Shown in pieces: positions 37,424 through 53,145 of a DNA stretch of 64,000 nucleotides. The stretch spans positions 62,001-126,000 of the forward strand of contig NZ_JACJQN010000002.1 of assembly GCF_014696675.1 (NCBI RefSeq), read 5' to 3'. The DNA comes from Phormidium tenue FACHB-1052. Its GTDB lineage: Bacteria; Cyanobacteriota; Cyanobacteriia; Phormidesmidales; Phormidesmidaceae. Position 1 is the first letter of the stretch. Every line of letters begins with the position of its first letter. A program made the position numbers and the translations under genes. The notes beneath the pieces were generated by a model that was not told the origin of the DNA, did not search any database, and was given only the letters and a program-made list of their open reading frames with translations.

Positions 37424-37433
37424 GGGAATGCTC

Positions 37434-37523
37434 CTAGGCAATGGCGTTAACAACAAGTCCAGACAGTGCGCCCATTAAGAAACCGAATCCGGTGAGTAGG
37501 GCAAAGGAATAAGAGTGGATCAT
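37434..37523 (-). CDS. 29-residue membrane peptide
   Basis: Tiny gene from the ATG at 37523 to TAG at 37434, preceded by AAGGA. The product MIHSYSFALLTGFGFLMGAL plus a short rest is one membrane helix rich in Gly and Leu. Its stop overlaps the ribosome site of the cupredoxin gene, so it may be translationally coupled to it. Not a family I recognise. Confidence 0.45.
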   Translation of the reverse strand: MIHSYSFALLTGFGFLMGALSGLVVNAIA

Positions 37524-37623
37524 GGGAGGAGTCCTTTTTATAAGCGGTGAAGGACGGGGGGTAGGGGAGCGAGGGAGTTTTGTGTTCTCGATGACTCAAT
37601 CACCTCATCCCCCCGTTACTCCA

Positions 37624-39876
37624 TCACCCTTGCAGCTTGGGGCGAAAGTTTCGTAGCCGTAGGGCATTCGTGACCACCGACACGGAGCTAAAGGCCATCG
37701 CGGCTCCAGCGATAATCGGGCTGAGCAGCCAGCCAAAGATGGGGTAGAGAATGCCCGCCGCGATCGGAATGCCTGCCACGTTGTAGATAAAGGCGAAGAA
37801 CAGGTTTTGGCGAATGTTGGCCATGGTGGCGCGGGAGAGCTGAATGGCGGTGACAATGCCGTGCAGATCGCCGGAGATCAGGGTGATATCGCTGGCGGCG
37901 ATCGCCACATCGGTCCCGGTGCCAATCGCCATCCCCACATCCGCTTGGGCCAGGGCAGGGGCGTCGTTAATGCCGTCGCCCACCATTGCTACAACCTTGT
38001 CTTCCCGTTGCAGATTTTCCACCTGGGCGGCTTTTTGGTCGGGGCGCACCTCGGCAAAGACGCGGGTAATGCCGACTTCGCGGGCGATCGCCTCGGCGGT
38101 GCGGCGGTTATCGCCGGTCAGCATCACCACTTCCAGCCCCATCCGTTGCAGGGTGGCAATAGCGGCGGCAGAGGAGGGTTTGACGGCATCAGCGATCGCC
38201 ATCAGCGCTTCGACTTGGCCATCCACCGCCAGCCACACCACGGTGCGACCGAGGGATTCTAGCTGGTCCCACTGGGTTTGCAGGCGATCGGTAGCAATGC
38301 CCAATTCCTGCATCCAGCGGTGGGTGCCAATCTGCACGCGCTGCCCAGCTACAGTGCCCTGAACGCCGCTGCCTGCAACCGCTTCAAAGCCTTTGGGATC
38401 TTCCAACGTTACCCCCTGCGCTTGGGCGTAGTTAACCACCGCTTCGGCCAGGGGATGCTCGGAGTTGCGTTCGAGAGATCCCGCCAGCTTTAGCAGATGC
38501 AGCTCGGTCGCGGTACCGTTCACCGTCAGGTAATCGGTCACGGTCGGCTTGCCCTGGGTAATAGTGCCGGTCTTATCGAGCACGATCGCCTGAATGTTGT
38601 GAGCCAGTTCCAGGCTGTCGGCCCCTTTAATCAAAATGCCGTTCTCAGCCCCTTTGCCCGTGCCCACCATAATTGAGGTCGGCGTGGCTAATCCTAAAGC
38701 ACAGGGGCAGGCAATAATCAGCACGCCCACGGTGGTGATCAGCGCCATCGTCACGTTGCCCATGATGTTGTACCAGACGATAAAGGTGAGAATGGCGATC
38801 GCGATCACCGCCGGTACAAACCACGCCGTCACCTGATCTGCCAGCTTTTGAATCGGCGCTTTTGACCCCTGGGCCTGCTGCACCAGCTTGACGATCTGCG
38901 CCAAGAACGTATCTTTGCCGACGCGGGTGGCGCGAAACTTGAAGCTGCCGGTTTTATTTAGCGTTGCCCCAATCACCTCGTCGCCGACGGTTTTCTGCAC
39001 AGGCACGCTTTCCCCCGTCACCATGGCCTCATCCAGGGTGGAGGCCCCGTCGATGATCTCGCCATCGACCGGAATTTTCTCCCCAGGGCGCACCAGCACC
39101 ACGTCGCCCAGCACCACTTCGGCAATGGGAATGTCGTACTCTCGGCCCTCGCGAATCACCCGCGCGGTTTTGGCCTGCAACCCCATCAGTTTGCGAATCG
39201 CTTCAGAGGTCTGACCCTTGGCACGATTTTCCAGCAGGCGGCCCAGCAAAATCAGGGCAATAATTACCGCAGCGGCCTCAAAATACACATCTGGGTTCAA
39301 CCCCTGGTCAATGAACCACTGGGGATAGATAGTGGGAAACAGCGAATAGAGAAACGCGGTGCCGGTGCCCACCGCCACCAGGGTATCCATGCTTGCCGAG
39401 TGGCGCTTGAGCGCTTTCCAGGCGTTGATAAAAAAGGAATTACCGGCCCAGAACAGCACCGGAGTAGTCAGCACCAGCTGAAACCAGGGGTTGTGCAGCC
39501 ACATGGGAATAAACGGAATCGGTAGGCCCAGCATCATCGGCAGCGAGCCGATCACTAAAATGCCGCCCATTATCAAGCTAAACACAGCCTTGCGGGTGAG
39601 CTGGCGGTTTTCAGTCTCTCGTTCTCTCCGTTCAGCATCGTCTTCGGCGGTCAGTGGGTCGTCGCTGAGGGGTTGGGCGGTGTATCCCGCATCATCCACC
39701 GCCGCCTGGATGTGGGTGAGGTTGGTCTGGTGGGGGTCGTAGGTGACAGCGGCTTGTTCTGCACCAAAGTTGACGCTGCATGCTTCTACACCAGGCACGC
39801 TGCGAATGGCGTCTTCAATGGTGCTGGCACAGGCGGCACAGCTCATGCCCCGCAGCTTTAAGAGTTGGTTTTGCAT
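37624..39876 (-). CDS. copA: CopA Cu(I) P-type ATPase
   Basis: P1B-1 ATPase of 750 residues. One N-terminal HMA domain with GMSCAAC, eight membrane helices, actuator TGES, transport motif CPC in ACPCALGLA, phosphorylation DKTGTIT, nucleotide motif SEHPLAEA, hinge [10 protein letters not shown], and YN / MxxSS in the last helices. It exports Cu(I) from the cytoplasm. The ATG at 39876 is preceded by AAGGAGG. Placed 57 bases after copZ, under the MerR-type promoter at 40157. Confidence 0.96.
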
Positions 39877-39933
39877 CGATATCCTCCTTGTCGGGATCAA
39901 TGGCTGGTCAGAATCAATGACTGAACGGCAGAG

Positions 39934-40128
39934 CTAGGCAACGGTATAGCCAGCGTCGATAATGGCCTGCTTAATGACGGTCTCGGTGGCGATGGTGGTA
40001 ACGTTGACCTGCTTGGTTTTGGAATCGGCGTTGACCTGGGCGGTGCTGTCAATTGTTTGAATGGCTTGGGTGACAGCCTTGACACAGGAGGAACAGGCCA
40101 GGTTAGGAACGGTAAATGAAAGAGACAT
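39934..40128 (-). CDS. copZ: CopZ-like copper chaperone (HMA domain)
   Basis: Protein of 64 residues, one HMA domain. The metal site is ACSSC (residues 11-15) after SFTVPNL, followed by AVTQAIQTID and ending AIIDAGYTVA. It carries Cu(I) to CopA. First gene after the MerR-type promoter. Confidence 0.93.
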   Translation of the reverse strand: MSLSFTVPNLACSSCVKAVTQAIQTIDSTAQVNADSKTKQVNVTTIATETVIKQAIIDAGYTVA

Positions 40129-40156
40129 AACAAACCTCTAAACGCTGTATGGGTCT

Positions 40157-40188
40157 ATCTTGGAGCTTCCAGTGCGCTGGAGAGTCAA
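40157..40188 (-). promoter_or_regulatory. MerR-type promoter of copZ-copA operon
   Basis: Read leftward: -35 TTGACT (40188-40183), 20-bp spacer with CTCCAGCGCACTGGAAG, -10 CAAGAT (40162-40157). The dyad CCAG-N4-CTGG is shared with four other sites. Confidence 0.75.
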
Positions 40189-40347
40189 GGGGGTAAGCCA
40201 AACAATTTGTGAAGCGGTTGATTATTCTTTTTATTAAGTCTTGAAACGACAATGAGGGGCATAAAGACTATGCCCCTCATTACGTTAGCTGTCAGTTTTT
40301 ATGAGCTTGTATCTGTGCTACGTTGACAAGCTCCAAGCCAGCGTGGA

Positions 40348-40716
40348 TTAGGCCATTGCCATGCTCATGCGGCGGCAGGTTTCTGCACAGCGGCGGCACA
40401 TCTCGGCGCAGGCCTGCATTTGGGCATCGTCGCCCATGCTGGCACAGTCCTTAGCGCAGCGATCGCACACCTCTGCACAGGCCCCGCAAAAATGCGCATG
40501 TAGGTCGGAACCGCGCAGCATAAAGTTGGCGCTGGTTTGGCAGCTCTCCACACAGTCCATCATCAGGCGAATGTGGGACGGCTCGGCGTGGTGACCACCC
40601 TGCTCTAAGCAGTAGGTGATGGTGTTGAGGCACATGCTGTGGCAATCGAGGCAGTTCTGAATGCACTGCTGCACCTCATCGCTTACATTGTGCAGTTTGA
40701 GGGTTTGAATCGGCAT
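40348..40716 (-). CDS. Four-helix-bundle copper-binding protein
   Basis: Protein of 122 residues with about 16 Cys and many His/Met in helical spacing (CIQNCLDCHSMC, CVESCQTSAN, HFCGACAEVCDRCAKDC, CAEMCRRCAETCRR). It matches the DUF326/Csp-like cytosolic Cu(I) storage type. Divergent from the intact copM-like gene, with one CopR-type repeat between them (40848). Confidence 0.9.
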   Translation of the reverse strand: MPIQTLKLHNVSDEVQQCIQNCLDCHSMCLNTITYCLEQGGHHAEPSHIRLMMDCVESCQTSANFMLRGSDLHAHFCGACAEVCDRCAKDCASMGDDAQMQACAEMCRRCAETCRRMSMAMA

Positions 40717-40847
40717 ATTTATCTCTCTAAGTGTTCAAGATCCTGATCACTTCGGTCTTTTCTAACTTAAAGAGAGACTAGAAATCGCCGAATCTAGCTA
40801 TTGAGAGAGATTGCCAAATTAGATATCTCATACCGTCAGCAGCTCGA

Positions 40848-40864
40848 ATTTCATTCTGATTTCA
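40848..40864 (+). promoter_or_regulatory. CopR-type direct repeat between divergent copper genes
   Basis: ATTTCA-N5-ATTTCA followed by TTTTTGCGTGG, 65 bases before the copM-like gene and 132 bases before the four-helix gene on the other strand; it could serve both. Confidence 0.65.
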
Positions 40865-40928
40865 TTTTTGCGTGGCACACTTCCGAAGTGAACACAACAC
40901 ACACTGCGCAGATGATTGAGGTATTGAG

Positions 40929-41600
40929 ATGACATTGAAACTAGCTGCGATCGCCCTGCTCAGTCTTAGCGCCGCTGTTGGCCTGCCCGCCTGCGCTAAC
41001 TCCCGAGACGCGGCGGTTGAGCCAGCCACCGAAACCGCCCAGATGGATCACGGCGGCATGGGCCAGATGGATGGCGGCATGATGGATCACGGCATGATGG
41101 ATCTTGGCCCCGCTGATGAGAGTTTTGACCTGCGCTTTATCGACGCGATGATCATGCACCACCAGGGCGCGGTGGTCATGGCAGAGGATGCCCAACAGAA
41201 CTCCACCCGTCCCGAAATTCAAACCCTGGCTAGCGACATCATTGCCGCTCAAGAGACTGAAATTGCCGAAATGCAGGCGTGGCGGCAAGCCTGGTATCCC
41301 GATGCTCCGGCAGACCCGGTCATGTACCACGCTGAGATGGGTCACATGATGCCCATGAGTGCAGATATGATGTCAGCCATGATGATGGACATGGATCTAG
41401 GCACTGCCGACGATGAGTATGACCTGCGCTTTATCAACGCCATGATTCCCCATCATGAGGGAGCTCTGACGATGGCGCAAGAGGCGCTAGCCAAGAGTAG
41501 TCGTCCTGAAATCCAGGAATTGGCGGAAGCCATTATCGCCAGCCAGCAGGTCGAGATCGACCAGATGACCCAGTGGCAGCAAGACTGGTACGGGCAGTAG
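40929..41600 (+). CDS. CopM-like periplasmic copper-binding lipoprotein (two DUF305 domains)
   Basis: Protein of 223 residues. Signal with lipobox GLPAC, a Met/His-rich stretch (MDHGGMGQMDGGMMDHGMM), then two DUF305 domains with FIDAMIMHHQGAVVMAEDA and FINAMIPHHEGALTMAQEA. The Met and His residues are suited to Cu(I)/Cu(II). It resembles cyanobacterial CopM, a DUF305 copper-resistance protein under CopRS control. Intact counterpart of the broken gene at 16872. Confidence 0.9.
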   Translation: MTLKLAAIALLSLSAAVGLPACANSRDAAVEPATETAQMDHGGMGQMDGGMMDHGMMDLGPADESFDLRFIDAMIMHHQGAVVMAEDAQQNSTRPEIQTLASDIIAAQETEIAEMQAWRQAWYPDAPADPVMYHAEMGHMMPMSADMMSAMMMDMDLGTADDEYDLRFINAMIPHHEGALTMAQEALAKSSRPEIQELAEAIIASQQVEIDQMTQWQQDWYGQ

Positions 41601-41714
41601 GAAGAGGGCGATCGCCCACCCCAGATGCGAGACGAATGCGCATCATACAAATCCCCCCAATGCCGCCTCCAACAGGTGCGCTGGGGGGATGACTTTCTTG
41701 CCAGCAAGAGATTA

Positions 41715-43178
41715 CTAAGCCGAAATTTGAATGTTGCCCATCATGCCCAGGTCTTCGTGGTCGAGGATGTGGCAGTGGAAGACGGTTTTGCCCGCAAAGG
41801 TGCGGAAGGGTACACGAATGCGCACTGTTTCGCCGCCCTTCACTAGAACCGTGTCTTTCCAGGCGCGGTAGGGTTCGGGCTGTCCGTTGCGGCTGATGAC
41901 CTGGAACGGGTTGACGTGTAGGTGAAAGGGGTGATCCATCCGGTCAGGGTCAACGTTGGCCAGTTCCCACTCTTCCACGGTATCGAGCTGGGCCTCGATG
42001 TCGATGCGCTGGCCATCGTAGGGTTTGCCGTTAAACCAAAACTCCATGCCCATGCCGCCACCCATGGTCATAGACAGCTCGATGCGGCGTGTGACAGTCG
42101 GTTCCGGCAGAGTTTCCACCGTGCCCAACTGTTGCGGTAGAGGCAACGCCGCAACTGAGCCGCGATAATTCAGGGTAGCCAAGGGTTGAGGGTCTCCCGA
42201 CAGGGCACTGCCACCGTGCATCATGCCGCCCATGCCGTGGCCGCCGCCCATCATGCCCATGCCGCCCCGGTTGTAGGGCAGGTTGAGTAGGCGGTACTCG
42301 CCCGGTTGTCGCTTTCCTTGGATGAGCACGTCTGCTCGTTCGCCGGGGGCGAGGAGGAGTTCTTGGAGTTCGATGGGGGATGCGATCGCCCCGCCATCTG
42401 TGGCAATCAACTGGAACGGGTGCCCCTCTAGCTGCAATCGATAGAAGCGGGAGGCCGACGCATTCAGCAACCGCAGCCGCAGTAACCCGCCTTGGGGAAT
42501 GTTCAAGCCGGGATTAACCCGACCATTCACCGTCACCAACGACCCTTCTCGCCCCATCATTAGCGCCATGTGGTTAGGCGCAGGGATATTGCCAGCCCGG
42601 TCAATCTCATAGTCTTTGAGGACGATAAATTCTTCCTGGGCGTCTTTCACCTCAGGAATGTCATCCAGGTCGCCCCGAATGACGAATAGACCCGCCAAGC
42701 CCCCAAAGAGTTGTTCTGCTGCGTGGTGGTGGTGATGGGGGTGATACCAAAAGGTGCCAGCAGGATGATCGGCAGGAATAGTAAATTCGTAGGTGAACGC
42801 TTCGCCCGGAGCCACGCTGAGGAAGACGTTATCGCCTGTGCCCTGGGGGGTGATGTGCAGCCCGTGGTAGTGCAAGTTGGTGGGCTGATCGAGCTGGTTG
42901 TGCAGCCGAATGCGGACGGTATCGCCGGGGCGGGCCTCTAGTCGGGGGCCGGGGCTTTGGCCGTTGTAGCTGAGCAGGTTGGCGGTGCGATCGCCTACCT
43001 GCACTGGGCTCACCGCAGCGGTTAAATCTACCTCTAGTAGGCCGTTTTGGCTGGTATAGAGGGGGGCAGCAGTGGTGGCAGCAAGCCCCTGAGCTAGTGA
43101 TCGATTCCTGAGCCAGTGGAGGGTGGCCGCACTGCCGATGCCAGCGGCTCCGAGGGCGATAAAGTGACGACGATCCAT
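41715..43178 (-). CDS. Multicopper oxidase (CueO-type)
   Basis: Periplasmic oxidase of 487 residues, probably oxidising Cu(I) to less toxic Cu(II). Tat-type signal (MDRRHFIALGAAG). All four copper motifs are present: HYHGLH, WYHPHHHHH, HPFHLH and HCHILDHEDLGMM. A Met/His-rich insert (GGMGMMGGGHGMGGMMHGG) before domain 3 fits cuprous oxidases such as CueO. Controlled by the MerR-type promoter at 43269. Confidence 0.95.
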   Translation of the reverse strand: MDRRHFIALGAAGIGSAATLHWLRNRSLAQGLAATTAAPLYTSQNGLLEVDLTAAVSPVQVGDRTANLLSYNGQSPGPRLEARPGDTVRIRLHNQLDQPTNLHYHGLHITPQGTGDNVFLSVAPGEAFTYEFTIPADHPAGTFWYHPHHHHHAAEQLFGGLAGLFVIRGDLDDIPEVKDAQEEFIVLKDYEIDRAGNIPAPNHMALMMGREGSLVTVNGRVNPGLNIPQGGLLRLRLLNASASRFYRLQLEGHPFQLIATDGGAIASPIELQELLLAPGERADVLIQGKRQPGEYRLLNLPYNRGGMGMMGGGHGMGGMMHGGSALSGDPQPLATLNYRGSVAALPLPQQLGTVETLPEPTVTRRIELSMTMGGGMGMEFWFNGKPYDGQRIDIEAQLDTVEEWELANVDPDRMDHPFHLHVNPFQVISRNGQPEPYRAWKDTVLVKGGETVRIRVPFRTFAGKTVFHCHILDHEDLGMMGNIQISA

Positions 43179-43268
43179 GGTCTTTTCCTTTTCCCTGGGG
43201 AAGGGGTATGAATGGTTGAAATGCCCGTCAATGCAGCGTGACAGGGGGGTAAAAGGCTTGATGACTCT

Positions 43269-43300
43269 ATGCTAGAGATTCCAGTGCGCTGGAGTGTCAA
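43269..43300 (-). promoter_or_regulatory. MerR-type promoter of the multicopper oxidase
   Basis: Read leftward: TTGACA (43300-43295), 20-bp spacer with CTCCAGCGCACTGGAAT, TAGCAT (43274-43269). The core is identical to the copZ-copA site. The rest of the 43301-43760 gap shows no gene. Confidence 0.8.
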
Positions 43301-43760
43301 GGGGGCGTTGATAAGTTCACAAACAAAAACTCGTTTGCCTGTTTGAGGCAAGCTCAAGCAAGGATATGAGGCTGGGAAAGGGCGGTAGGTGCCGGATAAG
43401 TTCGGTAGAGGGCATACGTCCGGCGTTTTTAACAAATAACTCCCTGTATCTCCAGAATCAAGCACACAGTTGATGGATAAGACTCTAACCACGAGGGTTT
43501 AGACAGCAGAAATGCCTTCTAAGCCCTGGGGAATGGGATATTATGCAGCATGTTTGACGGACAACTACGGTGTGTAGGGGTGTTATCCGTCAGATATGAC
43601 GTTGAATACATAGTTAGCCCTCCTAAGTTATCGGTTGAGGCATAGCCAGAAGGCTATTTGTAGAGCGATTAAATAAAGCATCCTTCCGCTGCCAAATTAT
43701 TGCATTGTGGCTAAACTGGGTTGAAAGATTACTCAAGGGCATTTGTTTGCAGGGGAGACA

Positions 43761-46376
43761 ATGGTTAAATTCCGTACTTCTACTTCAGAAGATTCTAAGC
43801 CTGAGTCTATCGTGACTATGTTTCAGGATCTTAATCGTGATCCATCCATTAAGTTCCTCCATTTCCATCAAGGAAAAATTTTGGAGGACTACTGCAATCA
43901 GAAAGACAGTAAATCAAATCAGAAATATATTCAGGTTAAAGATTTAGCAATTGAGTTGCCTACAGGCACGGGTAAAACTTTAGTTGGTCTTCTTATTGCT
44001 GAATATCGTCGTCGGGTATTCAATGAGCGAGTTGTTTTTTTGTGTCCAACTAGACAACTCTGCGCTCAGGTTAATGAACGTGCTCGCTTATATGGAATTA
44101 ATACAGCTTTATTAGTTGGCTCCCAAAGCAAATATGATCCAGGACAATTTTATTCATATCAGCAAGCTAAATCGATTGCGGTAACTACATATAGTGGAGT
44201 ATTCAACACCAATCCTCGAATCAATGATCCTGAAGTGATCATTTGTGATGACGCTCATGCAGCAGACAACTATATTTCTGCTCTCTGGACTCTGTCAATT
44301 GAGCGTTCAAGGCACAAGGATCTGTATATGGCTTTATACAGATTACTTGAACCAGTCATGCCAAATTACATAGCATACAAGATTGAAACTGGTGGAAGTA
44401 GCCGATTTGATGAATTCTCAGTAGATTTACTTTCAACAATAGCTTGGCATGGATGTCTAAATCAAATCGGACAAATCTTAGAAGAATTTGTTTCTGGACA
44501 CGATGATCTTAAATATTCATGGAGTATTCTTGCATCTCATCTTGAAGCTTGCTCACTGTATCTATCACCTAAAAGCATTGAAATTCGACCTCTTATTCCA
44601 CCAACTCAGACTCATCCACCTTTTTCAAACGCCAAACAGCGGATATACATGTCGGCTACATTGGGGGAAGATGGAGATATAGAGAGGGTTTTTGGAGTTA
44701 AGGCAATTGCCCGACTACCAATACCTGAAGAGTGGCATAAGAGAAGTACAGGTAGAAGACTAATTCTCTTCCCTGATCTTTCCGCAAATAAGGATTCCAC
44801 AGATACAGCAGTATCTATGGTTAAGCAGGTAGACCGTGCCCTCGTCCTTGTTCCTGATAATAAAAGACTTGAGGGATGGGAGACAAAGTTAAAAAAGACG
44901 CATGAGATTATCAAGTCTGAGGATATTGAGCAGAACCTAGATGCTTTTACTAAAGCTTCAGAACCATCAGTTCTTCTCTTGGCAACTCGCTACGATGGGA
45001 TCGATTTACCAGGAGAGGACTGCCGCTTCATGGTGTTGGATGGAGAGCCGTCTGCTTCAGGTTTACAAGAATTCTATTTAAGAGTTGGTCTTGGAGCCTC
45101 TTCCCAATTACATAATCGTATCCGAACTAGAATAACTCAGGCATTAGGGCGATGTACTCGTGATGAGAGTGACTATTCCGTGGTGTTTGTTTTGGGAGAT
45201 AAGCTAACACAAAGATGTTGCACTAAAACTCTTACTCAGGGTATGCACCCAGAACTTCAAGCTGAGATCTCATTCGGCTTGGAAAACTCAACTGACCATA
45301 CACCACAGGAATTTGTTGAACTGGCTCAATTATTTCTAAGTCGCTCACCTGATTGGCAAGCTGCCGAACAGGATATTCGAAAGAAGCGTGATTCTAATAC
45401 AAAAACTCCTGACCCTACCACTGAATATCTCAATCAGGCAATGCCCCATGAGATTGATTATGTATATGCTTCATGGAAAGGACAGCACGAAGATGCCTTA
45501 AGCATAGTGGCTAAAATTCTAGCAGCCTTAGAAGGAGGATCAAACCTCAAACCGTATAGGGCTTTCTGGCTACACCAAGCGGCTGCTTCTGCTTTTCTTG
45601 CTTGGCAACATTCTGGCAATGAAACCTTTAAGCTTACGGCTATTTCATATTTAGATAAAGCTTCAGGAGCGTCTTCAAACATTACTTGGCTAAGTAAGCT
45701 ACGTTCTGAGCTTTCAGGACAATCTGATGATAGTGCTGTTGAGGCTTTGCCCATACAGGAGTGGTTTCTGGAAGTCAATAGTTTACTTCAGAATTGGAAA
45801 ATTATTGGCAGTAAATTTGCAAGAAAAGTGTCTGAAACTCAGAATGACATTGAGAACAACGATGCTAAATCTTTTGAAAAGGGCTTGGCTACGTTAGGTA
45901 AAATGCTAGGTGCTAGCAGTCATCAGTGGACAGATGATGGTGCTCCTGATGGTCTTTGGGTATTTGGTAACTGGCACGCTTTTGTATTTGAAGCTAAAAC
46001 TGATGAAAACCCTGAAGGTGGAATTTCGCTTGATACAATACGCCAAGCTCGTACTCATGAACAACGAGTAAGAGCAGATAACTTGATTCCTGCTTTTGTT
46101 CCATGTTCTACGATTGTTATTTCACCACGATCGGCTGTCCACAACCTGGCAACTTCTCACGTTGAGGATATTGCTTACCTATCCCACGATGATGCTATCA
46201 AGTTATTCAGTGATGTTGCATTAGCTCTTGAACGACTTCGAGCATCGGCATCCGGGAGTACAGAAGAAACTTTACAAGAAATCGGCTTGCAGTTCTACAA
46301 AGAAAAATTGGTTGCGTTGCAAGATGTCAAAGAACGACTTCTTCGTAAAAAACTGAGAGACTTACCAATTCAATGA
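43761..46376 (+). CDS. SF2 helicase with C-terminal PD-(D/E)XK-like domain
   Basis: Protein of 871 residues from ATG 43761 (GGGGAG before it). Counting from there: Walker A LPTGTGKT (66-73), CPTRQL (motif Ia), DDAH as the Walker B box (163-166), MSATL (motif III), and QALGRCTRDESDYSVVF (motif VI region), a helicase of the Rad3/DEAH type. After a helical middle region, residues about 725-775 read APDGLWVFG, FVFEAKTD and a helix TIRQARTHEQR, fitting a PD-(D/E)XK nuclease core (Asp, Glu744, Lys746). The gene is clearly AT-richer than its neighbours and is unrelated to metals, so it is probably acquired; a stand-alone phage-defence role is plausible but inferred. Confidence 0.8.
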   Translation: MVKFRTSTSEDSKPESIVTMFQDLNRDPSIKFLHFHQGKILEDYCNQKDSKSNQKYIQVKDLAIELPTGTGKTLVGLLIAEYRRRVFNERVVFLCPTRQLCAQVNERARLYGINTALLVGSQSKYDPGQFYSYQQAKSIAVTTYSGVFNTNPRINDPEVIICDDAHAADNYISALWTLSIERSRHKDLYMALYRLLEPVMPNYIAYKIETGGSSRFDEFSVDLLSTIAWHGCLNQIGQILEEFVSGHDDLKYSWSILASHLEACSLYLSPKSIEIRPLIPPTQTHPPFSNAKQRIYMSATLGEDGDIERVFGVKAIARLPIPEEWHKRSTGRRLILFPDLSANKDSTDTAVSMVKQVDRALVLVPDNKRLEGWETKLKKTHEIIKSEDIEQNLDAFTKASEPSVLLLATRYDGIDLPGEDCRFMVLDGEPSASGLQEFYLRVGLGASSQLHNRIRTRITQALGRCTRDESDYSVVFVLGDKLTQRCCTKTLTQGMHPELQAEISFGLENSTDHTPQEFVELAQLFLSRSPDWQAAEQDIRKKRDSNTKTPDPTTEYLNQAMPHEIDYVYASWKGQHEDALSIVAKILAALEGGSNLKPYRAFWLHQAAASAFLAWQHSGNETFKLTAISYLDKASGASSNITWLSKLRSELSGQSDDSAVEALPIQEWFLEVNSLLQNWKIIGSKFARKVSETQNDIENNDAKSFEKGLATLGKMLGASSHQWTDDGAPDGLWVFGNWHAFVFEAKTDENPEGGISLDTIRQARTHEQRVRADNLIPAFVPCSTIVISPRSAVHNLATSHVEDIAYLSHDDAIKLFSDVALALERLRASASGSTEETLQEIGLQFYKEKLVALQDVKERLLRKKLRDLPIQ

Positions 46377-46675
46377 GATAAGACTGCCTATGGAGTTCAA
46401 TGCAGGTCTGTGCCGGATAGCTAACACTGTGTTGGTGCGGACGGTACAGAGGTTGTCAGTGGGTGTTCGAGATTATCTGCCGCCGCACAACTTCATTGTT
46501 ACAAAAATTTCTAAGCTTCAATACATCATGGCTTTATTGGGGCAATTTTCGCATCGGCAGAGAAATTGATTGTTGAAAAAACTTTTTCTAATAAGAAATT
46601 GCTTGTTTCTCGGAGCAAAAGTTTTAGCGGTGTATTCCTTCTGCGAGTCATTGGTCTTTCCATGCTGAGATTGCC

Positions 46676-49600
46676 CTAGCGAAATGCCTTAGCCACGCGC
46701 TGCTGCATATGGCCGATCGCAATATAGAGTACCGGCACCACAAACAGCGTCAGCACCGTCGCCACCAGCATGCCGCCAAAGATCGCCGTACCCAACGATT
46801 GGCGACTGGCTGAGCCTGCCCCCGTGGCCACCATCAGCGGATAAATGCCCAACAGGGTCGAAATCGCCGTCATCAAAATCGGGCGCAGCCGTTCTTGGGA
46901 AGCCTGCACCGCCGCTTGGGTGAGGGATAGCCCTTCGTCCCGCAGCTGGTTGGCAAATTCCACAATGAGGATGGCGTTTTTGCTGGCCAGACCAATCAGC
47001 ATCACCAGCCCCACCTGGCAGTACACGTCGTTGTACAGCCCGCGCATCGACTGGGCCACCAGGGCACCTAGCACCGCCAGGGGCACCGCCAGCATAATCG
47101 TCAGCGGATCGACAAAGCTGTTGTACTGGGCCGCCAGCACCAAAAAGACGAAGAAAATCCCCAGGCCAAAGATGATTGGCGCTTTGCCGCCCGACTCTAG
47201 TTCTTCGAGGGAAATGCCCGACCACTCAAAGCCCAGGTTGGGGGGCAGCACCTCGGTCGCCAGCTTTGCCATCGCCTGCATGGCCTGACCAGAGCTGGTG
47301 CCGGGAGCCGCTGAACCGTTGATCTCAATCGAGCGGTGCAGGTTGTAGTGGTTGATAATCTGCGGGCCAGTGGTGCGGGTAATGGTCACCAAGGCGCTGA
47401 GGGGAATCATTTCGTTCAGGCGCGATCGCACATACAGTTGCCCAATGCTGTCAGGCTCGGCGCGGAAGGCGGCATCGGCCTGCACATAAACCCGATAGGT
47501 GCGGCCAAAGGCGTTGAAGTCGTTGACGTAGCGGGAGCCCATGTAGGTTTGCAGGGTGCTAAAGATGTCTTCCACAGGCACCTGCAACGCTTCGGCGCGA
47601 TCGCGGTTGACCTCTACCTGGAGCTGGGGCGCGTTAGCCGTGTAGAGGCTAAACACCCCCTGCAAGCCGGGGGTTTGGTTGGCCTGCGCCAAAATCGCCC
47701 CTTTCATTTGATCGAGTTCCTGGATGTCGGCGGTGCTGCTGTCGCGATCTTGCAGCTGGAACACAAAGCCGCCAACGCTGCCCAGGCTGGGGATGGTGGG
47801 CGGGTTCACCGCAATCACGGGGGCCTGGGGAATGCCCATCAGCGGTAGCCGCACCCGGTTGAGAATGCCCGTCACCGACTGCTCCGGCTGCCGCCGCTCT
47901 TGCCAGGATTTGAGCGGCGCAAACAATATGCCCCGGTTGGGGGTGTTGCCGTTAAAGCCCACCCCGCCCATGGCAAAGGTGCCCTCCAGCTCTGGCACCG
48001 CCAGCAACTGCTGCTCGGCCTGGGCCACCACCTGCTCGGTATAGTTCAGGGAGGTGCCATCTGGCCCCTGCAAAATGCTGATGAAATAGCCCTGATCTTC
48101 TTCCGGCAGAAACGCCTGGGGTACCTGGGTGTAGAGCCATCCCGTCGCCACCAGCAGCCCCACAAAGCCGACCAGAACGGCGCTCTGCCATCGCATCAAC
48201 CGACCCAGCCCCCAGTGGTAGCTGCGCTCTAGCCCGGTCAAAAAGCCGTTGATGCGGCGGTAGATCCAGCCGAGAGCGCCAGTTTGGCGGGGCTGTGCCC
48301 GTAGCAGCAGCGCGGAGAGCGCCGGGGTAAGGGTGAGGGCATTGAAAGTAGAAAGTGCGATCGCAAAGGCAATCGTCAACGCAAACTGCTGGTAGAGCTG
48401 CCCCGCCGTACCGGGGAAAAAGCCCACCGGCACAAATACCGCCATCAGCACCAGCGAGGTGGCAATCACCGCGCCCACCAGGTTGCGCATAGATGCGATC
48501 GCAGCCTGCATCGGCGACAGCCCCTCCCTTTGAATCAGGCGGCTGATGTCCTCCACAATCACAATCGCGTCATCCACCACCATACCCGTCGCCAGCGTCA
48601 GGCCAAACAGCGTCAGGCTGTTGAGAGAAAAGCCAAAGAGTTTGACAAAGGCGAAGGTGCCCACCAGCGACACCGGAATGGTGATCGCTGGAATCACCGT
48701 GGTGCGCCAGTCTTGCAGAAACACAAAGATCACCAGCACCACCAGCACCACCGCCTGCAACAGCGTGATAATCACTTCTCGAAACGACGCCTCCACAAAC
48801 CGCGACGAGTCGTAGGGAATCTCGTAAATCAGCCCTGGGGGAAAGCGTTCCGCCAGCCGCGCCATCTCCGCCTTCACCGCCTTGGCAATGGCCAGAGAGT
48901 TGCTGCCGGGGGTTTGCAAAATTTGGTACCCCACCGCCGGATGGCCGCTGTAACGGGCAAAGGTGCTGTAGCGCTCGGCCCCAAGTTCTGCCCGCCCCAC
49001 ATCCTTCAGTTTGACCAGATCGCCTGCCGCCCCTGCCTTGAGCACCACCTCCTCAAACTCCGCTGGGCTACTCAGCCGTCCCAGGGTTTGCAGATCGATC
49101 TGGTAGAGCTGGCCGTCAGGGTTGGGCGGTTGACCAATGCTGCCTACCCCTAGCTGCACATTCTGCTGGCGCAACGCTGTAATCACGTCCTGGGCAGTGA
49201 GCTGGCGGCTGGCGAGGCGATTGGGGTCGAGCCAGAGGCGCATGGCATAGCGCCGCTCGCCAAAGGGAACGAGGGTACCCACACCAGGAATCCGCCGTAG
49301 AGCATCGAGCACATAGAGGTCGGCGTAGTTGCTGATGAAGGTGTCGTCGTAGCGATCATCTTCGCTGTAGAGCGCCATCGCCAGCACAATGGAGCTAGAC
49401 TGCTTCGACACCTGCACCCCCGTTTGGCGCACCGCCTCCGGCAGTTGGGGTTCCGCCTGCAACACCCGGTTCTGCACATCCGAGGCGGCCACATCAATGT
49501 TGTACCCCTGGCGAAAGGTGACGACAATGGTGCTGGTGCCGTCGTTGCTGCTGGTGGAGCTGATGTAGCGCATCCCCTCCACGCCGTTGATCTGGCGCTC

Positions 49601-49798
49601 CAGCACGTTGGTCACCGTTTCTTCCACCACCTGGGCATTGGCCCCGACGGCGTTGGCGGTGACGGTAATCTGCACCGGGCTGATGTCGGGATACTGCTCA
49701 ATGGGCAGCAATGGCAGGCTGATCAACCCCACCACCAGGGTGACCAGCGCACAGACAATGGCAAACACGGGCTTTTTGATGAAGAAATCTGTAAACAT
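46676..49798 (-). CDS. AcrB-type (HAE-1) RND efflux pump
   Basis: Drug/solvent-type proton-driven exporter of 1040 residues. Typical start MFTDFFIKKPVFAIVCALV, IEQYPDISPVQITV, helix 4 with TGMVVDDAIVIVEDISR (the two relay Asp residues), and C-terminal GLASKNAILIVEFANQL. Twelve membrane helices and two large porter loops. It works with the adaptor upstream; an outer channel is not encoded beside it, so it would use a TolC protein elsewhere. About 300 bases (46377-46675) before its end hold no gene that I can see. Confidence 0.95.
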   Translation of the reverse strand: MFTDFFIKKPVFAIVCALVTLVVGLISLPLLPIEQYPDISPVQITVTANAVGANAQVVEETVTNVLERQINGVEGMRYISSTSSNDGTSTIVVTFRQGYNIDVAASDVQNRVLQAEPQLPEAVRQTGVQVSKQSSSIVLAMALYSEDDRYDDTFISNYADLYVLDALRRIPGVGTLVPFGERRYAMRLWLDPNRLASRQLTAQDVITALRQQNVQLGVGSIGQPPNPDGQLYQIDLQTLGRLSSPAEFEEVVLKAGAAGDLVKLKDVGRAELGAERYSTFARYSGHPAVGYQILQTPGSNSLAIAKAVKAEMARLAERFPPGLIYEIPYDSSRFVEASFREVIITLLQAVVLVVLVIFVFLQDWRTTVIPAITIPVSLVGTFAFVKLFGFSLNSLTLFGLTLATGMVVDDAIVIVEDISRLIQREGLSPMQAAIASMRNLVGAVIATSLVLMAVFVPVGFFPGTAGQLYQQFALTIAFAIALSTFNALTLTPALSALLLRAQPRQTGALGWIYRRINGFLTGLERSYHWGLGRLMRWQSAVLVGFVGLLVATGWLYTQVPQAFLPEEDQGYFISILQGPDGTSLNYTEQVVAQAEQQLLAVPELEGTFAMGGVGFNGNTPNRGILFAPLKSWQERRQPEQSVTGILNRVRLPLMGIPQAPVIAVNPPTIPSLGSVGGFVFQLQDRDSSTADIQELDQMKGAILAQANQTPGLQGVFSLYTANAPQLQVEVNRDRAEALQVPVEDIFSTLQTYMGSRYVNDFNAFGRTYRVYVQADAAFRAEPDSIGQLYVRSRLNEMIPLSALVTITRTTGPQIINHYNLHRSIEINGSAAPGTSSGQAMQAMAKLATEVLPPNLGFEWSGISLEELESGGKAPIIFGLGIFFVFLVLAAQYNSFVDPLTIMLAVPLAVLGALVAQSMRGLYNDVYCQVGLVMLIGLASKNAILIVEFANQLRDEGLSLTQAAVQASQERLRPILMTAISTLLGIYPLMVATGAGSASRQSLGTAIFGGMLVATVLTLFVVPVLYIAIGHMQQRVAKAFR

Positions 49799-49860
49799 GG
49801 GGTCACCTCTGGGTGTAGTGGAGTGCCTTCAGGGGGTGGGTGGCAGGAAGATTCAAGGGT

Positions 49861-49877
49861 GGTGGGCAATGCCCACC
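49861..49877. repeat. Small palindromic repeat GGTGGGCAATGCCCACC
   Basis: Almost identical to the repeat at 23103 and also followed by CTAYGAC; again in the gap between an RND pump and its adaptor gene. Confidence 0.6.
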
Positions 49878-49906
49878 CTACGACTTGCTAATCTCTGGAA
49901 AATCAA

Positions 49907-51205
49907 TCAATTCTCAATGGGGCTGACAGGTGCACCGTCGCGCAGCATCAGCACCCCGGTGGTGATTACCGCTTCGCCGGGCTGTAGCCCCTCGATCACC
50001 TGGTACTGGTTCTCTTCTATTTCGCCGAGCTGCACCGATCGCTGTCGTGCCACCGTGCCCTCTGGCCCAGACTCCGCCACAAACACAAAGGATTGACTGC
50101 CCAAATGGGTCACAGCACTGGCGGGCACGCGGGTACCCTGGCGCTGGCTCCAGGTAATGCGAGCCTGAACAAACTGATCGGCCCGCAGCTTGCCTTCAGA
50201 GTTGGGGAGTAACGCCTTCACCAGCACCAGTTGCGTCGCGGGGTCGGCATTGGGGGCAATGAATTCAACCTGGCTGGTGCCCAGGGTTTGCCCCTGGCCA
50301 TCCACCAGTTCTACAGGGCTACCGGGTTGCAGCAGCGCCGCTCGCTCCGCCGGAACGGAGAAATTCACCTCCAGGGTGTCGTTCTTGGCCAGCCCAATCA
50401 GGGCTGTGCCCGGACTCACCACCTCGCCCACCTTGACGGGAATATCGCTCACCATCCCGGTAAAGGGCGCGGTGATCTGAAAATAGGCCAGCTGGGATGC
50501 CTGAGCCTGGGTTTGGGCCTGCGCCGCCTGCCAAGATTGCTCGGCCTGGGCAATAGTGGCCTGCTGGGCGCGGATCTGCTCATCCATGGCATTTAGCAGG
50601 GCGCGGGCCACTTCGAGCTGCTGGGCGTACTGATCGCGCATTTGCCGGGAGACTGCGCCCGCCTCGGCCAGGGTGGCAAAGCGGTCATACTCCTGCTGGG
50701 CGTATTGCACCTCGGTCAGTTTGGCCACCCGCTGCGCTGCTAAGGCTTGCAGGCCAGCTCTGGCATTGGCGATACTGGCCTGGGCTGATTCTGCCGCAGC
50801 GGCAGCTCCAGTGACCAGGGCCTGCTGTTGCTGCGGGTTGATCTCAATTAGCACAGTGCCAGCGGTGACGCGATCGCCCGACCGCACCCGAATTTGCGCC
50901 ACCTGCCCCTGCACCTGAGGCCGCAGGAGAACGGATTGGTGCGATCGCAGACTGGCCACAAACTCCGATGTTTCCGCTAGACTCACGGCCTGCACCGTCA
51001 GGGTTTGCACCGGCATGGGGGGCTGCTGCGCCTGGGCTACAGGTACCACCTCCTGCTTTTGCCACCAGCGCCACAGTTCAAAGCTGCCGCCAGTGAGCCA
51101 AAGCAGGGCAAAGAGTATCCAAAGGCGCGATCGCCACGGTCGTTTTTTGGGGCTTGCCGCTGGCTCTGTTTGAGCATCAGCGATGGGGAAATCAAAGGCG
51201 TCCAT
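49907..51205 (-). CDS. AcrA-type RND periplasmic adaptor
   Basis: Protein of 432 residues with one N-terminal anchor helix (about 25-45), lipoyl halves (LRPQVQGQVAQIRVRSGDRV, then FQITAPFTGMVSDIPV), a long coiled alpha-hairpin between them (about 110-220), and beta-barrel/MP-proximal regions. No lipobox; signal-anchor type. First gene of the pair with the AcrB-type pump. Confidence 0.93.
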   Translation of the reverse strand: MDAFDFPIADAQTEPAASPKKRPWRSRLWILFALLWLTGGSFELWRWWQKQEVVPVAQAQQPPMPVQTLTVQAVSLAETSEFVASLRSHQSVLLRPQVQGQVAQIRVRSGDRVTAGTVLIEINPQQQQALVTGAAAAAESAQASIANARAGLQALAAQRVAKLTEVQYAQQEYDRFATLAEAGAVSRQMRDQYAQQLEVARALLNAMDEQIRAQQATIAQAEQSWQAAQAQTQAQASQLAYFQITAPFTGMVSDIPVKVGEVVSPGTALIGLAKNDTLEVNFSVPAERAALLQPGSPVELVDGQGQTLGTSQVEFIAPNADPATQLVLVKALLPNSEGKLRADQFVQARITWSQRQGTRVPASAVTHLGSQSFVFVAESGPEGTVARQRSVQLGEIEENQYQVIEGLQPGEAVITTGVLMLRDGAPVSPIEN

Positions 51206-51254
51206 AACTGATTTGGAGATAATAGGTGTTCGTCAGGTCAGGCTATAAAACCGC

Positions 51255-51563
51255 CTAAACATCGTCGGGGCTGGCCAGATATTGCTGCTCTAGCCAAACG
51301 CGAACGTCGTTAATAGAGAGCGATCGAAACGGCTGATCGGCCAAGGAATCTTGAATCATCCACCAACTCTGACCGGTGCGATCGACGTACTCCCAAACTC
51401 GGGGCTCCATTTCCCCAAACAGCGCAAAAGAGAGTTCCCTAGAGGTGCGTGAAAGCCAGTCAAACAATGCTCCAACCGGCGATTTTGGCCTATTGTCAAG
51501 GGATGACTCAAGCCATTCAAGATCGCGGTAGACATTCGGGCTATCAGGCGGCAGTTCATACAT
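51255..51563 (-). CDS. Unknown small protein, paralog of the 51638 gene
   Basis: Protein of 102 residues from the ATG at 51563. Cytosolic, Trp-rich. The C-terminal half (YVDRTGQSWWMIQD, then FRSLSINDVRVWLEQQY) lines up with the neighbour at 51638 (RHGNTYYGVYDV, then FHRFESEDEVRIWLEQRY), so the two are paralogs. I do not recognise the family. Second gene of an operon driven by the MerR-type promoter at 51965. Confidence 0.65.
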   Translation of the reverse strand: MYELPPDSPNVYRDLEWLESSLDNRPKSPVGALFDWLSRTSRELSFALFGEMEPRVWEYVDRTGQSWWMIQDSLADQPFRSLSINDVRVWLEQQYLASPDDV

Positions 51564-51637
51564 AACAGACTCCTTTTTCGATGGAAATACTAGATAGGAC
51601 ATCAGATTGGAATCAGAAAATTAACCGGGCAGCGCAT

Positions 51638-51925
51638 TCAGCGGTAATAGCGTTGCTCTAGCCAAATACGCACCTCATCCTCAGACTCGAAGCGATGGAA
51701 GTCTTGAGTCGATACGTCATAAACTCCGTAGTAGGTATTGCCGTGGCGATCGCGACCTGTGAAAATTCTCAGCTCGCTGGATGGCGCAAATAGCTCAATT
51801 AGGCTATGCCAGACACGGTGAAGGATCTGTTTGAAGCTCCATTTCTTAGGGCTCTCGTCAACCAGCTCAAACCATTCTTCAGCAAAGCCTGAGCCTGTAT
51901 TAAATCCGTTGGTGTTAGTGCTCAT
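51638..51925 (-). CDS. Unknown small protein under a MerR-type promoter
   Basis: Protein of 95 residues starting at the ATG at 51925, which lies about 33 bases after the expected transcription start. It has helix LHRVWHSLIELFAPSSELRI, a beta hairpin (GRDRHGNTYYGVYDV) and the C-terminal DEVRIWLEQRYYR shared with its paralog. It may be a small metal-stress protein; family unknown. Its promoter makes it part of the copper MerR regulon. Confidence 0.65.
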   Translation of the reverse strand: MSTNTNGFNTGSGFAEEWFELVDESPKKWSFKQILHRVWHSLIELFAPSSELRIFTGRDRHGNTYYGVYDVSTQDFHRFESEDEVRIWLEQRYYR

Positions 51926-51964
51926 TAGATGTTCCTCAACAGCGGTTAAGTCAACCATGGATAA

Positions 51965-51996
51965 ACCATACAGTTTCCAGTTAGCTGGACAGTCAA
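51965..51996 (-). promoter_or_regulatory. MerR-type promoter of the small paralog operon
   Basis: Read leftward: TTGACT (51996-51991), 20-bp spacer with GTCCAGCTAACTGGAAA, TATGGT (51970-51965). Confidence 0.75.
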
Positions 51997-52027
51997 GCGC
52001 TAATTTGAAGAAATTTTTGGCAATAAA

Positions 52028-52051
52028 AAAGGCCTGCGATCGCAGACCTTT
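52028..52051 (-). terminator. Terminator after the SnoaL-like gene
   Basis: Read leftward: AAAGGTCTGC GATC GCAGGCCTTT followed by TTT. The loop and top of the stem contain the HIP1 core GCGATCGC. Confidence 0.8.
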
Positions 52052-52108
52052 CAATCCAGCTAAAGCTGGCAAATAGATGTGTTCAAGAGCCTTTTGGACT
52101 CAGACTAG

Positions 52109-52483
52109 CTAAGATCCATAGTAGAAGCGTTCGTGAATCACTTGGCCATCTTGCCATTGCTGTACCGAAACCTGGTGATAGGTGCGTCGCCCCCATTCGG
52201 CATGGGTATAGTCCAGATACCATTCAGAAAAAATTGTATTCTCCGTGAAGGCCACGTTCTTGAGTTTGGCCTCATGAATATCAAGAATCTTGGCAAAGAA
52301 GTCTTCTTCTCGGCGACGGTTAGCCTCTTTGCCAACGGTGGCGGGTTCGTCATTTTCTTGCATGACTACCGTATCAGCATAGTATTTTTCAAAGGCTTCC
52401 ATCGCGCTACCTTTGAGTACGAGCTGGCAAATATCCTCAAAAACAACTGGCAGACTGATTTCAGTATTCACTTGAGTCGTCAT
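52109..52483 (-). CDS. SnoaL-like (NTF2-fold) protein
   Basis: Cytosolic protein of 124 residues. The pattern FEDICQLVLKGSAMEAFEKY at the start, ADTVVMQEND, and the final strands YHQVSVQQWQDGQVIHERFY fit the NTF2/SnoaL-like cone fold used by small polyketide cyclases and stress proteins. Ligand unknown. It is preceded by a MerR-type promoter (52574), so it is part of the metal regulon; function there is not known. Confidence 0.8.
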   Translation of the reverse strand: MTTQVNTEISLPVVFEDICQLVLKGSAMEAFEKYYADTVVMQENDEPATVGKEANRRREEDFFAKILDIHEAKLKNVAFTENTIFSEWYLDYTHAEWGRRTYHQVSVQQWQDGQVIHERFYYGS

Positions 52484-52573
52484 AGGTTTCCTCTCAGTTA
52501 GTTTTAGGTGTGAATTCTGGTGTATCCAATGCCTTGCGCAGGGTTTTGTTCCTGATTAACTAGGCATAATCTC

Positions 52574-52605
52574 ACTCTAGAGCTTCCCCCTGACTGGAGT
52601 GTCAA
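52574..52605 (-). promoter_or_regulatory. MerR-type promoter of the SnoaL-like gene
   Basis: Read leftward: TTGACA (52605-52600), 20-bp spacer with CTCCAGTCAGGGGGAAG (right half of the dyad decayed), TAGAGT (52579-52574). Confidence 0.65.
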
Positions 52606-52621
52606 GAGAAGATTTTCAAAC

Positions 52622-52653
52622 AAAAAGACTGGGCCTAATCAATAGACCCAGTT
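52622..52653 (-). terminator. Terminator after merR
   Basis: Read leftward: ACTGGG / CCCAGT stem followed by CTTTTTG. Confidence 0.7.
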
Positions 52654-52689
52654 CGGCAGTTATTACTTGTTGGAGAAAAGATAAATTTA

Positions 52690-53100
52690 CTAGCTTTCAA
52701 TAATCGGACAGATGGCTTCGTCCGTTTTAGTAGCTGTGCTTTGCCACCCAATCAGAAGCCCAGATAGCTCCTGCCTCAGCAGTTGAAATTGCTGAATTTT
52801 TTCTTCAATCTCTGTCAACTTATCCTCTAGCTTGACTTGGATATGGGAGCAGGGTAAGTCCCCTTGATCATGCACTTCCAAAAATTCTTTGATTTCGGTC
52901 AGGGTGAGACCAAGGCTCTGGGCGCGCCGAATAAAGCCCAACCGGGTAAAGACATCTTCCGCAAAAACTCGATAGCCGCCCTCGGTACGACCAGCGGTTT
53001 TGAGCAGGCCGATCTCATCGTAGTAGCGGATGGTTTTAACGGGTAGGCCGCTTTTCTTAGCAACAGCGCCAATGAGTTTGGGAGGAGCTTCTGTGAGCAT
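52690..53100 (-). CDS. MerR-family copper/heavy-metal regulator
   Basis: Protein of 136 residues from the ATG at 53100 (GAGG before it). MerR HTH with IGAVAKKSGLPVKTIRYYDE and GLL, wing EGGYRVF, long helix, and candidate metal ligands Cys in DLPCSHI and in the C-terminal AICPIIES. It is the nearest candidate to bind the CCAG-N4-CTGG promoters. Its own promoter of the same type (53915-53946) has been separated from the gene by the IS1-like element, so its expression may be altered. Confidence 0.88.
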   Translation of the reverse strand: MLTEAPPKLIGAVAKKSGLPVKTIRYYDEIGLLKTAGRTEGGYRVFAEDVFTRLGFIRRAQSLGLTLTEIKEFLEVHDQGDLPCSHIQVKLEDKLTEIEEKIQQFQLLRQELSGLLIGWQSTATKTDEAICPIIES

Positions 53101-53145
53101 GGCTGACCTCATCAAGTATTACATCTATCCTAGGTAGAACTCTAG

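Follow-up and report, generated by a model that had tools for sequence, protein, structure and literature searches.

A divergent Hna-type helicase-nuclease gene, probably carried as an integron cassette, in the cyanobacterium Phormidium tenue FACHB-1052

The nearest described relative of the gene considered here is Hna of Sinorhizobium meliloti, which published work presents as a protein held in an ATP-bound dimer and released by the single-stranded DNA-binding protein (SSB) of a phage, with structures of the monomer (10UJ) and the dimer (9YKJ), nuclease mutants directed at P712, D713, E727 and K729, and a dimer loop described as highly conserved (PMC13381803; a further source on Hna is PMC12445080). 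A second point of reference is PDC-S28, a candidate system that PADLOC and DefenseFinder label differently (PMC11811056). We analysed a 64,000-nucleotide stretch of the Phormidium tenue FACHB-1052 genome (NCBI RefSeq assembly GCF_014696675.1, contig NZ_JACJQN010000002.1, positions 62,001 to 126,000 of the forward strand), hereafter the window, which contains a gene for an 871-residue helicase-nuclease, here called hna. We hold it very probable that this is a divergent Hna-type (PDC-S28) single-protein defence gene, carried as an integron cassette and stranded without an integrase.

Integrons, in which the crossover falls at G^TT, are known carriers of resistance genes. Their recombination is governed by the folded bottom strand (PMC8352920), and they have been described as defence banks, with anti-phage genes of streamlined size in the integrons of Vibrio and in mobile integrons (PMC12409362, citing Darracq 2025 and Kieffer 2025). 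Cyanobacterial integrons are likewise already known (PMC2426708, PMC8352920, PMC9668308). A full-text search, judged from titles, found no related paper joining Hna, phage and integron cassettes, and no title among the matches listed concerned cyanobacterial defence cassettes, subscription papers lying mostly outside its coverage. The kind of protein found here is already known; the new part is its full-size carriage as a cassette in an integrase-less remnant.

The original prediction, made from the sequence without database searches, had read the gene as a stand-alone helicase-nuclease with the motifs LPTGTGKT, DDAH and MSATL and a C-terminal PDG-(x)n-EAK core. All of these are present in the open reading frame (ORF), the core taking the form PDG-x12-EAK, and an alternative in-frame TTG start at 43743 would lengthen the product to 877 residues. 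The two lysines singled out for mutation were Lys746, which stands as numbered, and Lys73, which should be K72, the lysine of Walker A. The motifs, Pfam and structure together place HEL1 and HEL2 lobes of a superfamily 2 (SF2) helicase in the protein, with Pfam matches above cut-offs for ResIII and DEAD inside residues 38-170 and for Helicase_C_2 at 357-497. Since these three helicase families are the whole Pfam listing to an expectation value (E) of 10, the C-terminus is covered by no Pfam family. Among the cysteines lying between Walker A and motif II (C95, C101, C162) only C95 is conserved in the alignment, and cysteine is present in at least 8 of 19 rows at residues 95, 264, 421 and 465; as judged from the alignment, the helicase appears to lack a canonical iron-sulphur (Fe-S) cluster.

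Sequence profiles identify the family. A search of the PADLOC models, a check that had been proposed with the original prediction, returned two PDC-S28 models matching from end to end (E 7.6e-116 over residues 1-839 and 1.2e-115 over residues 12-862), with typeIV_DinG as the runner-up family (E 5.4e-19). The top of five matches in the PDB is an 845-residue protein (E 1.9e-39; 10UJ, 9YHN, 9YKJ), with which the product of the S. meliloti USDA1106 pSymA locus (L012; loci and genomes that we compared are designated L and G, respectively) aligns over 845/845 residues. As that product reaches 1020 bits on the PDC-S28 model PDLC04986, Hna belongs within PDC-S28, and the PDC-S28 models also rank top for all nine relatives scanned, S. 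meliloti Hna included. All four residues mutated in Hna are kept, as P729, D730, E744 and K746. From these profile and structural matches we take the window protein to be a distant member of an already-named family, so that the earlier proposal of a defence gene survives as the best reading by homology, and the system that it did not recognise as a named one is PDC-S28 (PADLOC) or Hna (literature). The nuclease lysine is replaced by histidine in L015 and L017, relatives from a Nostoc plasmid and Rhodobacteraceae.

An AlphaFold2 model built from the window protein and 20 relatives (predicted local distance difference test score, pLDDT, 86.3; predicted template modelling score, pTM, 0.83) has Hna as its first-ranking PDB match in Foldseek (E 5.7e-38, query TM 0.65). 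By VIA-align the full model matches Hna with Z 36.3 over 758 residues, at a root mean square deviation (rmsd) of 9.4 that perhaps reflects differing domain poses; next come the Hna dimer (25.1) and then DinG, CasDinG and XPD (at most 18.2). Residues 664-871 modelled alone (pLDDT 93.8) match the Hna nuclease domain with Z 20.2 and 2.7 A over 195 residues, and thereafter best match Nt.BspD6I and FokI (Z about 11), both of which we take to be PD-(D/E)XK enzymes. The C-terminal fold is accordingly predicted to be PD-(D/E)XK-like, an unlike fold being what the original prediction had named as evidence against it. An alternative would be that a DinG/XPD-type helicase-nuclease of DNA repair or recombination simply happens to be mobile, and the likeness of the helicase part to DinG, CasDinG and XPD speaks for this, as does a weak NCBIfam dinG_rel match of 29.2 bits. 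However, that match lies far below the cut-off of 547.7 bits, whereby DinG membership was rejected, Hna is much closer than DinG (Z 36.3 versus 18.2), and the family is patchily distributed, with broken or partial copies in 4 of 386 genomes, and turns up on plasmids, on viral contigs and in a cassette; we regard this alternative as improbable. No homologues with a housekeeping role were seen, although no search aimed at them was made.

The distribution of the family is patchy. Matches occur in 227 of 72,556 plasmid records, 82 of which cover 80% or more of the query, and in one of 50,697 phage records, a 501-kb Salmonella record. Relatives are encoded at 34 loci on IMG/VR viral contigs, and all 23 examined are open frames of 830-896 residues, so the family appears to travel also on prophage-like contigs; no sign of prophage-like carriage was found at the window locus. 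Within the window's order, a match of any kind occurs in 5 of 63 genomes, and a close full-length copy in the host's own genome only (1/63). A congeneric genome, G024, holds a distant full-length Hna-type frame (L008) on the S. meliloti side of the tree, a placement that suggests at least two separate gains in the genus. Across the phylum sample some match is found in 254 of 386 genomes, a figure not taken as the size of the family, since past roughly the first 15 the listed rows are almost all short helicase-core matches; counted by hand, rows spanning most of the model occur in six of the 386 (G000, G180 over two contigs, G333, G311, G161, G092), and broken or partial copies in four (G396, G445, G419, G375). 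Pattern matching across 84,980 species genomes, sensitive to close relatives only, gave six loci, every one cyanobacterial: L004 of Chroococcus FPU101 is 94% identical by segment, L002 of UBA8803 88%, and the four others 66-70%. In L004 (7983-10617) hna is split into two frames, with attC still behind it.

The original prediction had also placed the gene in a mobile region, without seeing the vehicle, which the flanking DNA points to as an integron cassette: its 5' boundary falls at an attI crossover, and downstream lies an attC with a foldable stem (Table 1). From about 43384 the DNA upstream of hna aligns with six loci of the same genus, four of which adjoin the integrase gene intI or remnants of it (L139, where intI is intact; L138, where its frame is broken though it still scores above cut-off; and L150 and L151, which keep remnants; the other two are L153 and L157). 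The similarity reaches ...GAATACATAGTT and then ceases, at what we take to be the place of the integron G^TT crossover; L146, next to another intact intI, has the final GAATACATAGTTA in common with the window. When the R'' box of the cassette is complemented, the cassette's 5' heptamer GTTAGCC matches it at 6 of 7 positions and the present 3' flank at 4 of 7, the corresponding values being 6 versus 5 in both L002 and L005; in this small test all three cases point the way that a circular cassette opened at GTT would predict.

Of the genus's 25 other genomes, 21 contain the attC repeat by BLAST, the remaining matches of that search falling in the pump gene; most copies start with TAAC and finish with GTTA. 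From 23 pattern matches, L016 and L089 were judged false and dropped, as were repeats of the window copy, and L098 was added by hand; the 19 copies used, each 86 nt long, gave a covariance model whose training rows include the window, L004 and L005. The corresponding attC lies directly behind hna in L004, in L005 and in L002, which is recovered at E 3.4e-11 though outside the training set. In a covariation test on 74 model matches (68 distinct rows), 93.5% of stem pair cells are standard pairs versus 76.8% after shuffling and 30-49% with slid partners, and the covariation score is 0.423 versus 0.134 and 0.056-0.083, respectively; the alignment was structure-fitted and its rows are related, both of which favour this result. 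On the bottom strand the window copy folds better than all 200 of its shuffles (z -2.97), followed by L103 (z -2.15) and L004 (z -1.71). A foldable stem and covarying pairs are features of integron attC sites. The model matches all 26 genomes of the genus (E to 0.001), spread over many contigs and not in one array, and 56 of the 60 genomes of the family sample, genus included (E to 1e-6); in the host genome it matches at six places, five of them weak (40-45 bits).

The host assembly has no recognisable integrase gene. Whereas 13 of the 26 same-genus genomes hold intI above the TIGR02249 curated cut-off, some with internal stops, none lies beside the window's attI, and the host assembly holds none above that cut-off (best 50.8 bits versus 265), so that the window's integron is probably an integrase-less remnant. 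The genomes of L002-L007 also hold none above cut-off (0/6). The tyrosine recombinase at G000:C31 (L136) was considered as IntI and ruled out by its score. One may instead suppose that there is no cassette here, the flanks being ordinary dispersed repeats and hna having been moved by another element, and the lack of intI, the scatter of attC-like copies over many contigs and the hna of L003 with no attC behind it would all be in keeping with that. Yet the attI similarity ends at GTT, the matching attI adjoins intI in both L139 (intact) and L138 (frame-broken, but above cut-off), the attC pairs covary, 20 of 30 attC sites of the genus have an upstream ORF on the same strand (a count made without a chance control), and the repeats of 43250-46750 are short and chance-like, with no terminal inverted repeat; we therefore consider that explanation highly improbable.

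A congeneric genome, G036, preserves what appears to be the empty site. Its copper region is 85-89% identical to window positions 36853-53132 in three blocks, and by BLAST window positions 43324 and 46665 adjoin in it, with right-hand similarity traceable by eye back to about 46640. Because the flanks adjoin, about 3.3 kb of DNA, in which hna is the sole large gene, is present in one genome and absent from the other. The ORF list (at least 80 residues) shows no other large plus-strand ORF within the segment, in keeping with the absence of a partner gene noted in the original prediction. The composition also differs as it had described: the 1-kb bins across hna have a G+C content of 40-48%, and of 12 flanking bins (35-43 kb and 47-51 kb) 11 have 57-63% and one 50.5%; that of the cassette is 41.5%. 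Given the patchy distribution, a gain by the window's lineage would be a simpler explanation of this single comparison than a loss. From their ORF translations, judged by eye, the neighbours in the copper region are presumably a multicopper oxidase, a CusA-like pump and a P-type ATPase.

The same protein and locus also yield results that weigh against our reading. The window protein is only about 22% identical to S. meliloti Hna, the Hna dimer-loop residues T30/D31/P34 are replaced by P28/S29/F32 and R36 by H34, and in a maximum-likelihood tree of 40 rows a 100/100 branch parts 18 rows including S. meliloti Hna from 22 including the window protein, which by this tree lies in the opposite half from the Hna that has been tested (the root is a midpoint root, and L022 forms a very long branch). 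Within its half the window protein groups with the cyanobacterial L002, L003 and L005 (100/100), the protein alignments omitting L004 and L006, whose genes are broken, and L007, which is cut. With these loop residues differing, the autoinhibition described for Hna may not extend to this protein, whose trigger and control may also be different, and the published Hna switch serves as a model only. The two PDC-S28 models also give the window protein nearly equal scores (386.4 and 385.7 bits), whereas Hna reaches its 1020 bits on one. It is a substantial possibility, though not the one that we favour, that this half of the tree, with its cyanobacteria, Paenibacillus, actinobacteria and Nostoc plasmid, represents a sister system of defence that is triggered and controlled differently, and not Hna in the strict sense. 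However, length class, domain order and catalytic residues are the same, and Hna is the best structural match, over 758 residues. The dimer-loop residues, moreover, are variable in further rows, including five A1 rows on Hna's own side of the tree, for which reason they appear to mark one protein and not the family. The two readings also overlap, as both describe a single-gene helicase-nuclease for defence.

On the cassette side, the attC score of the window is high by construction, the copy being a training row. To E 1 the model finds no attC beside the 15 plasmid-borne hna (L012-L026), nor in L003, L006 and L007, and for this reason cassette carriage would be a side branch of the family. Pairs changed on both sides (12 versus 10.2) and further pair types (36 versus 31.6) were reached by 67 and 23 of 500 shuffles, respectively, so that two of the five covariation measures stand barely above shuffles, and the L005 attC folds no better than its shuffles (z 0.23). 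Nine of 15 intI loci show no BLAST similarity to the DNA upstream of hna in the window, suggesting several attI types in the genus, and the empty site is known from one relative. Promoter-like sites, too, are at chance level (seven found versus 7.0 expected). This last result and the lack of intI, with which the Pc promoter would perhaps have been lost, as well as the broken Chroococcus copy, might indicate a silent relic, a promoterless stranded cassette whose expression is gone. On the other hand, the window frame is open through all 871 codons with every motif in place, and about 145 bp ahead of the start codon are common to the window, L002 and L004 and may hold a promoter; we think a silent relic unlikely, and retain the divergent Hna-type cassette as our reading.

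Other observations concern the repeats and sites of the locus and the genus. A 15-nt direct repeat (87%) joins 43384-43398, where the attI similarity starts, and 46405-46419, just before attC; it is unexplained and may be chance. Searching for insertion sequence (IS) or transposon ends over 43250-46750 gave two inverted pairs (15 and 20 nt), neither at the segment ends, and eleven short direct pairs, the 15-nt repeat just described among them, and this candidate was rejected; an Rfam scan of 43000-47000 gave no match to E 1. A repeat of about 54 bp (81%) at 43252-43305 and 40140-40193 in the copper region recurs in G043 (94% over 63 bp) and G036 (78%), and may be a shared metal-responsive operator. 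Between intI and the crossover, the attI regions of L138, L139, L150 and L151 carry a succession of TTATCC...GGATAA units, and they are presumably longer than usual attI sites. In L097 (G023, 567-691) an attC runs straight into an attI-like end (GAATACATAGTTAGCC), no gene separating the two, an arrangement that is unexplained. An attC-like stretch in L030 (4076-4161) lies 22 nt past the stop codon of an Hna gene from a different branch; with E 0.032 and no GTTA end it is unproven, and its sequence is perhaps that of a decayed cassette end.

Table 1. Features of the hna locus (window positions)
Feature	Position	Strand	Remarks
Segment missing from G036 copper region, otherwise collinear	43325..46640		right end uncertain: 46664 by BLAST, about 46640 from the flanks by eye
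attI site	43450..43613	+	alignable similarity to intI-adjacent DNA from about 43384, to ACATAG^TT
Integron gene cassette, 2885 bp	43614..46498	+	first base follows the attI crossover at G43613; last base is the G of GTT in attC
hna-like gene	43761..46376	+	stop codon included; 871 residues, SF2 helicase and PD-(D/E)XK nuclease; ORF, profile and structure evidence
Walker A LPTGTGKT	43956..43979	+	residues 66-73, lysine K72
Motif II DDAH	44247..44258	+	residues 163-166
MSATL motif	44649..44663	+	residues 297-301
C-terminal nuclease region, modelled separately	45750..46373	+	residues 664-871
Nuclease P729 D730	45945..45950	+	counterparts in Hna: P712 D713
Nuclease E744-A-K746	45990..45998	+	counterparts in Hna: E727, K729
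attC site, 86 nt	46419..46504	+	R'' box 46419-46425; GTT 46498-46500

Thirty attC sites of the genus, lying in 20 stretches of DNA, were sampled, and 20 of them have a same-strand ORF of at least 50 residues ending no more than 250 bp upstream. Ten of these ORFs, chosen partly for a defence or toxin look such that no rate can be derived from them, were compared with families: three match PADLOC models (a BsoBI-type restriction enzyme, AbiU/AIPR and a type II methyltransferase; L215, L216 and L221), five others match Pfam (HEPN, PIN in two, BrnT or DUF5615 families) and two have no match. Within each of the groups L102/L104/L105/L111 and L107/L108/L109 the sequence before attC is alike across genomes and the DNA behind it mostly differs, by eye, which matches expectation for moving cassettes.

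By homology with S. meliloti Hna, we propose that the DinG/XPD-like helicase part of the window protein would bind ATP and restrain the C-terminal PD-(D/E)XK exonuclease until a product or a DNA state arising from phage replication (SSB in the one case studied) frees it; 3'-5' cutting of single-stranded DNA would then halt phage replication and probably the cell too, i.e. abortive infection. The anti-phage function of the window protein is thus argued by analogy with its tested relative. As for the gene's arrival, an integron integrase would have recombined a circular cassette, through its attC, into attI at G43613^T43614, placing hna in first position, and intI would later have been lost, or never carried along, leaving the cassette stranded. 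More broadly, it is nearly an even possibility that cyanobacteria of the window's family bank anti-phage genes in integron cassettes, including full-size helicase-nucleases of nearly 3 kb, each exchanged as a single cassette among distant cyanobacteria and fixed in first position upon loss of the integrase. Such cassettes offer a concrete route for Hna-type genes to move singly, which fits the absence of a partner gene, and the one described here holds a full-size helicase-nuclease of 871 residues, as against the streamlined defence genes described from integrons. Both the anti-phage role of the divergent half of the Hna tree and the mobility of 3-kb defence cassettes under cyanobacterial integrases can now be tested.

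Set beside the known systems, the window protein shares with CasDinG, DinG and XPD the fold of the helicase core (Z about 15-18), but these matches stop at about residue 540, and the C-terminal nuclease falls outside the alignments. Both models of PDC-S28, the candidate single-gene system of PADLOC, match it from end to end, although PDC-S28 is the name of a model rather than of a tested function and the protein is about equally far from the two. Like the anti-phage cassettes of Vibrio and mobile integrons, the window has a putative defence gene between attI and attC, in first position beside attI, but its host is a cyanobacterium with no intI found in the genome and its gene is full-size, at 871 residues (PMC12409362). 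S. meliloti Hna (SMa2245; 10UJ, 9YKJ) differs in sequence, in the dimer-loop residues and R36, and in its location on pSymA in place of an integron cassette, yet it is likewise a single protein (845 residues) of HEL1-HEL2-NUC order, with no canonical Fe-S cysteines and a P-D-E-K nuclease (PMC13381803).

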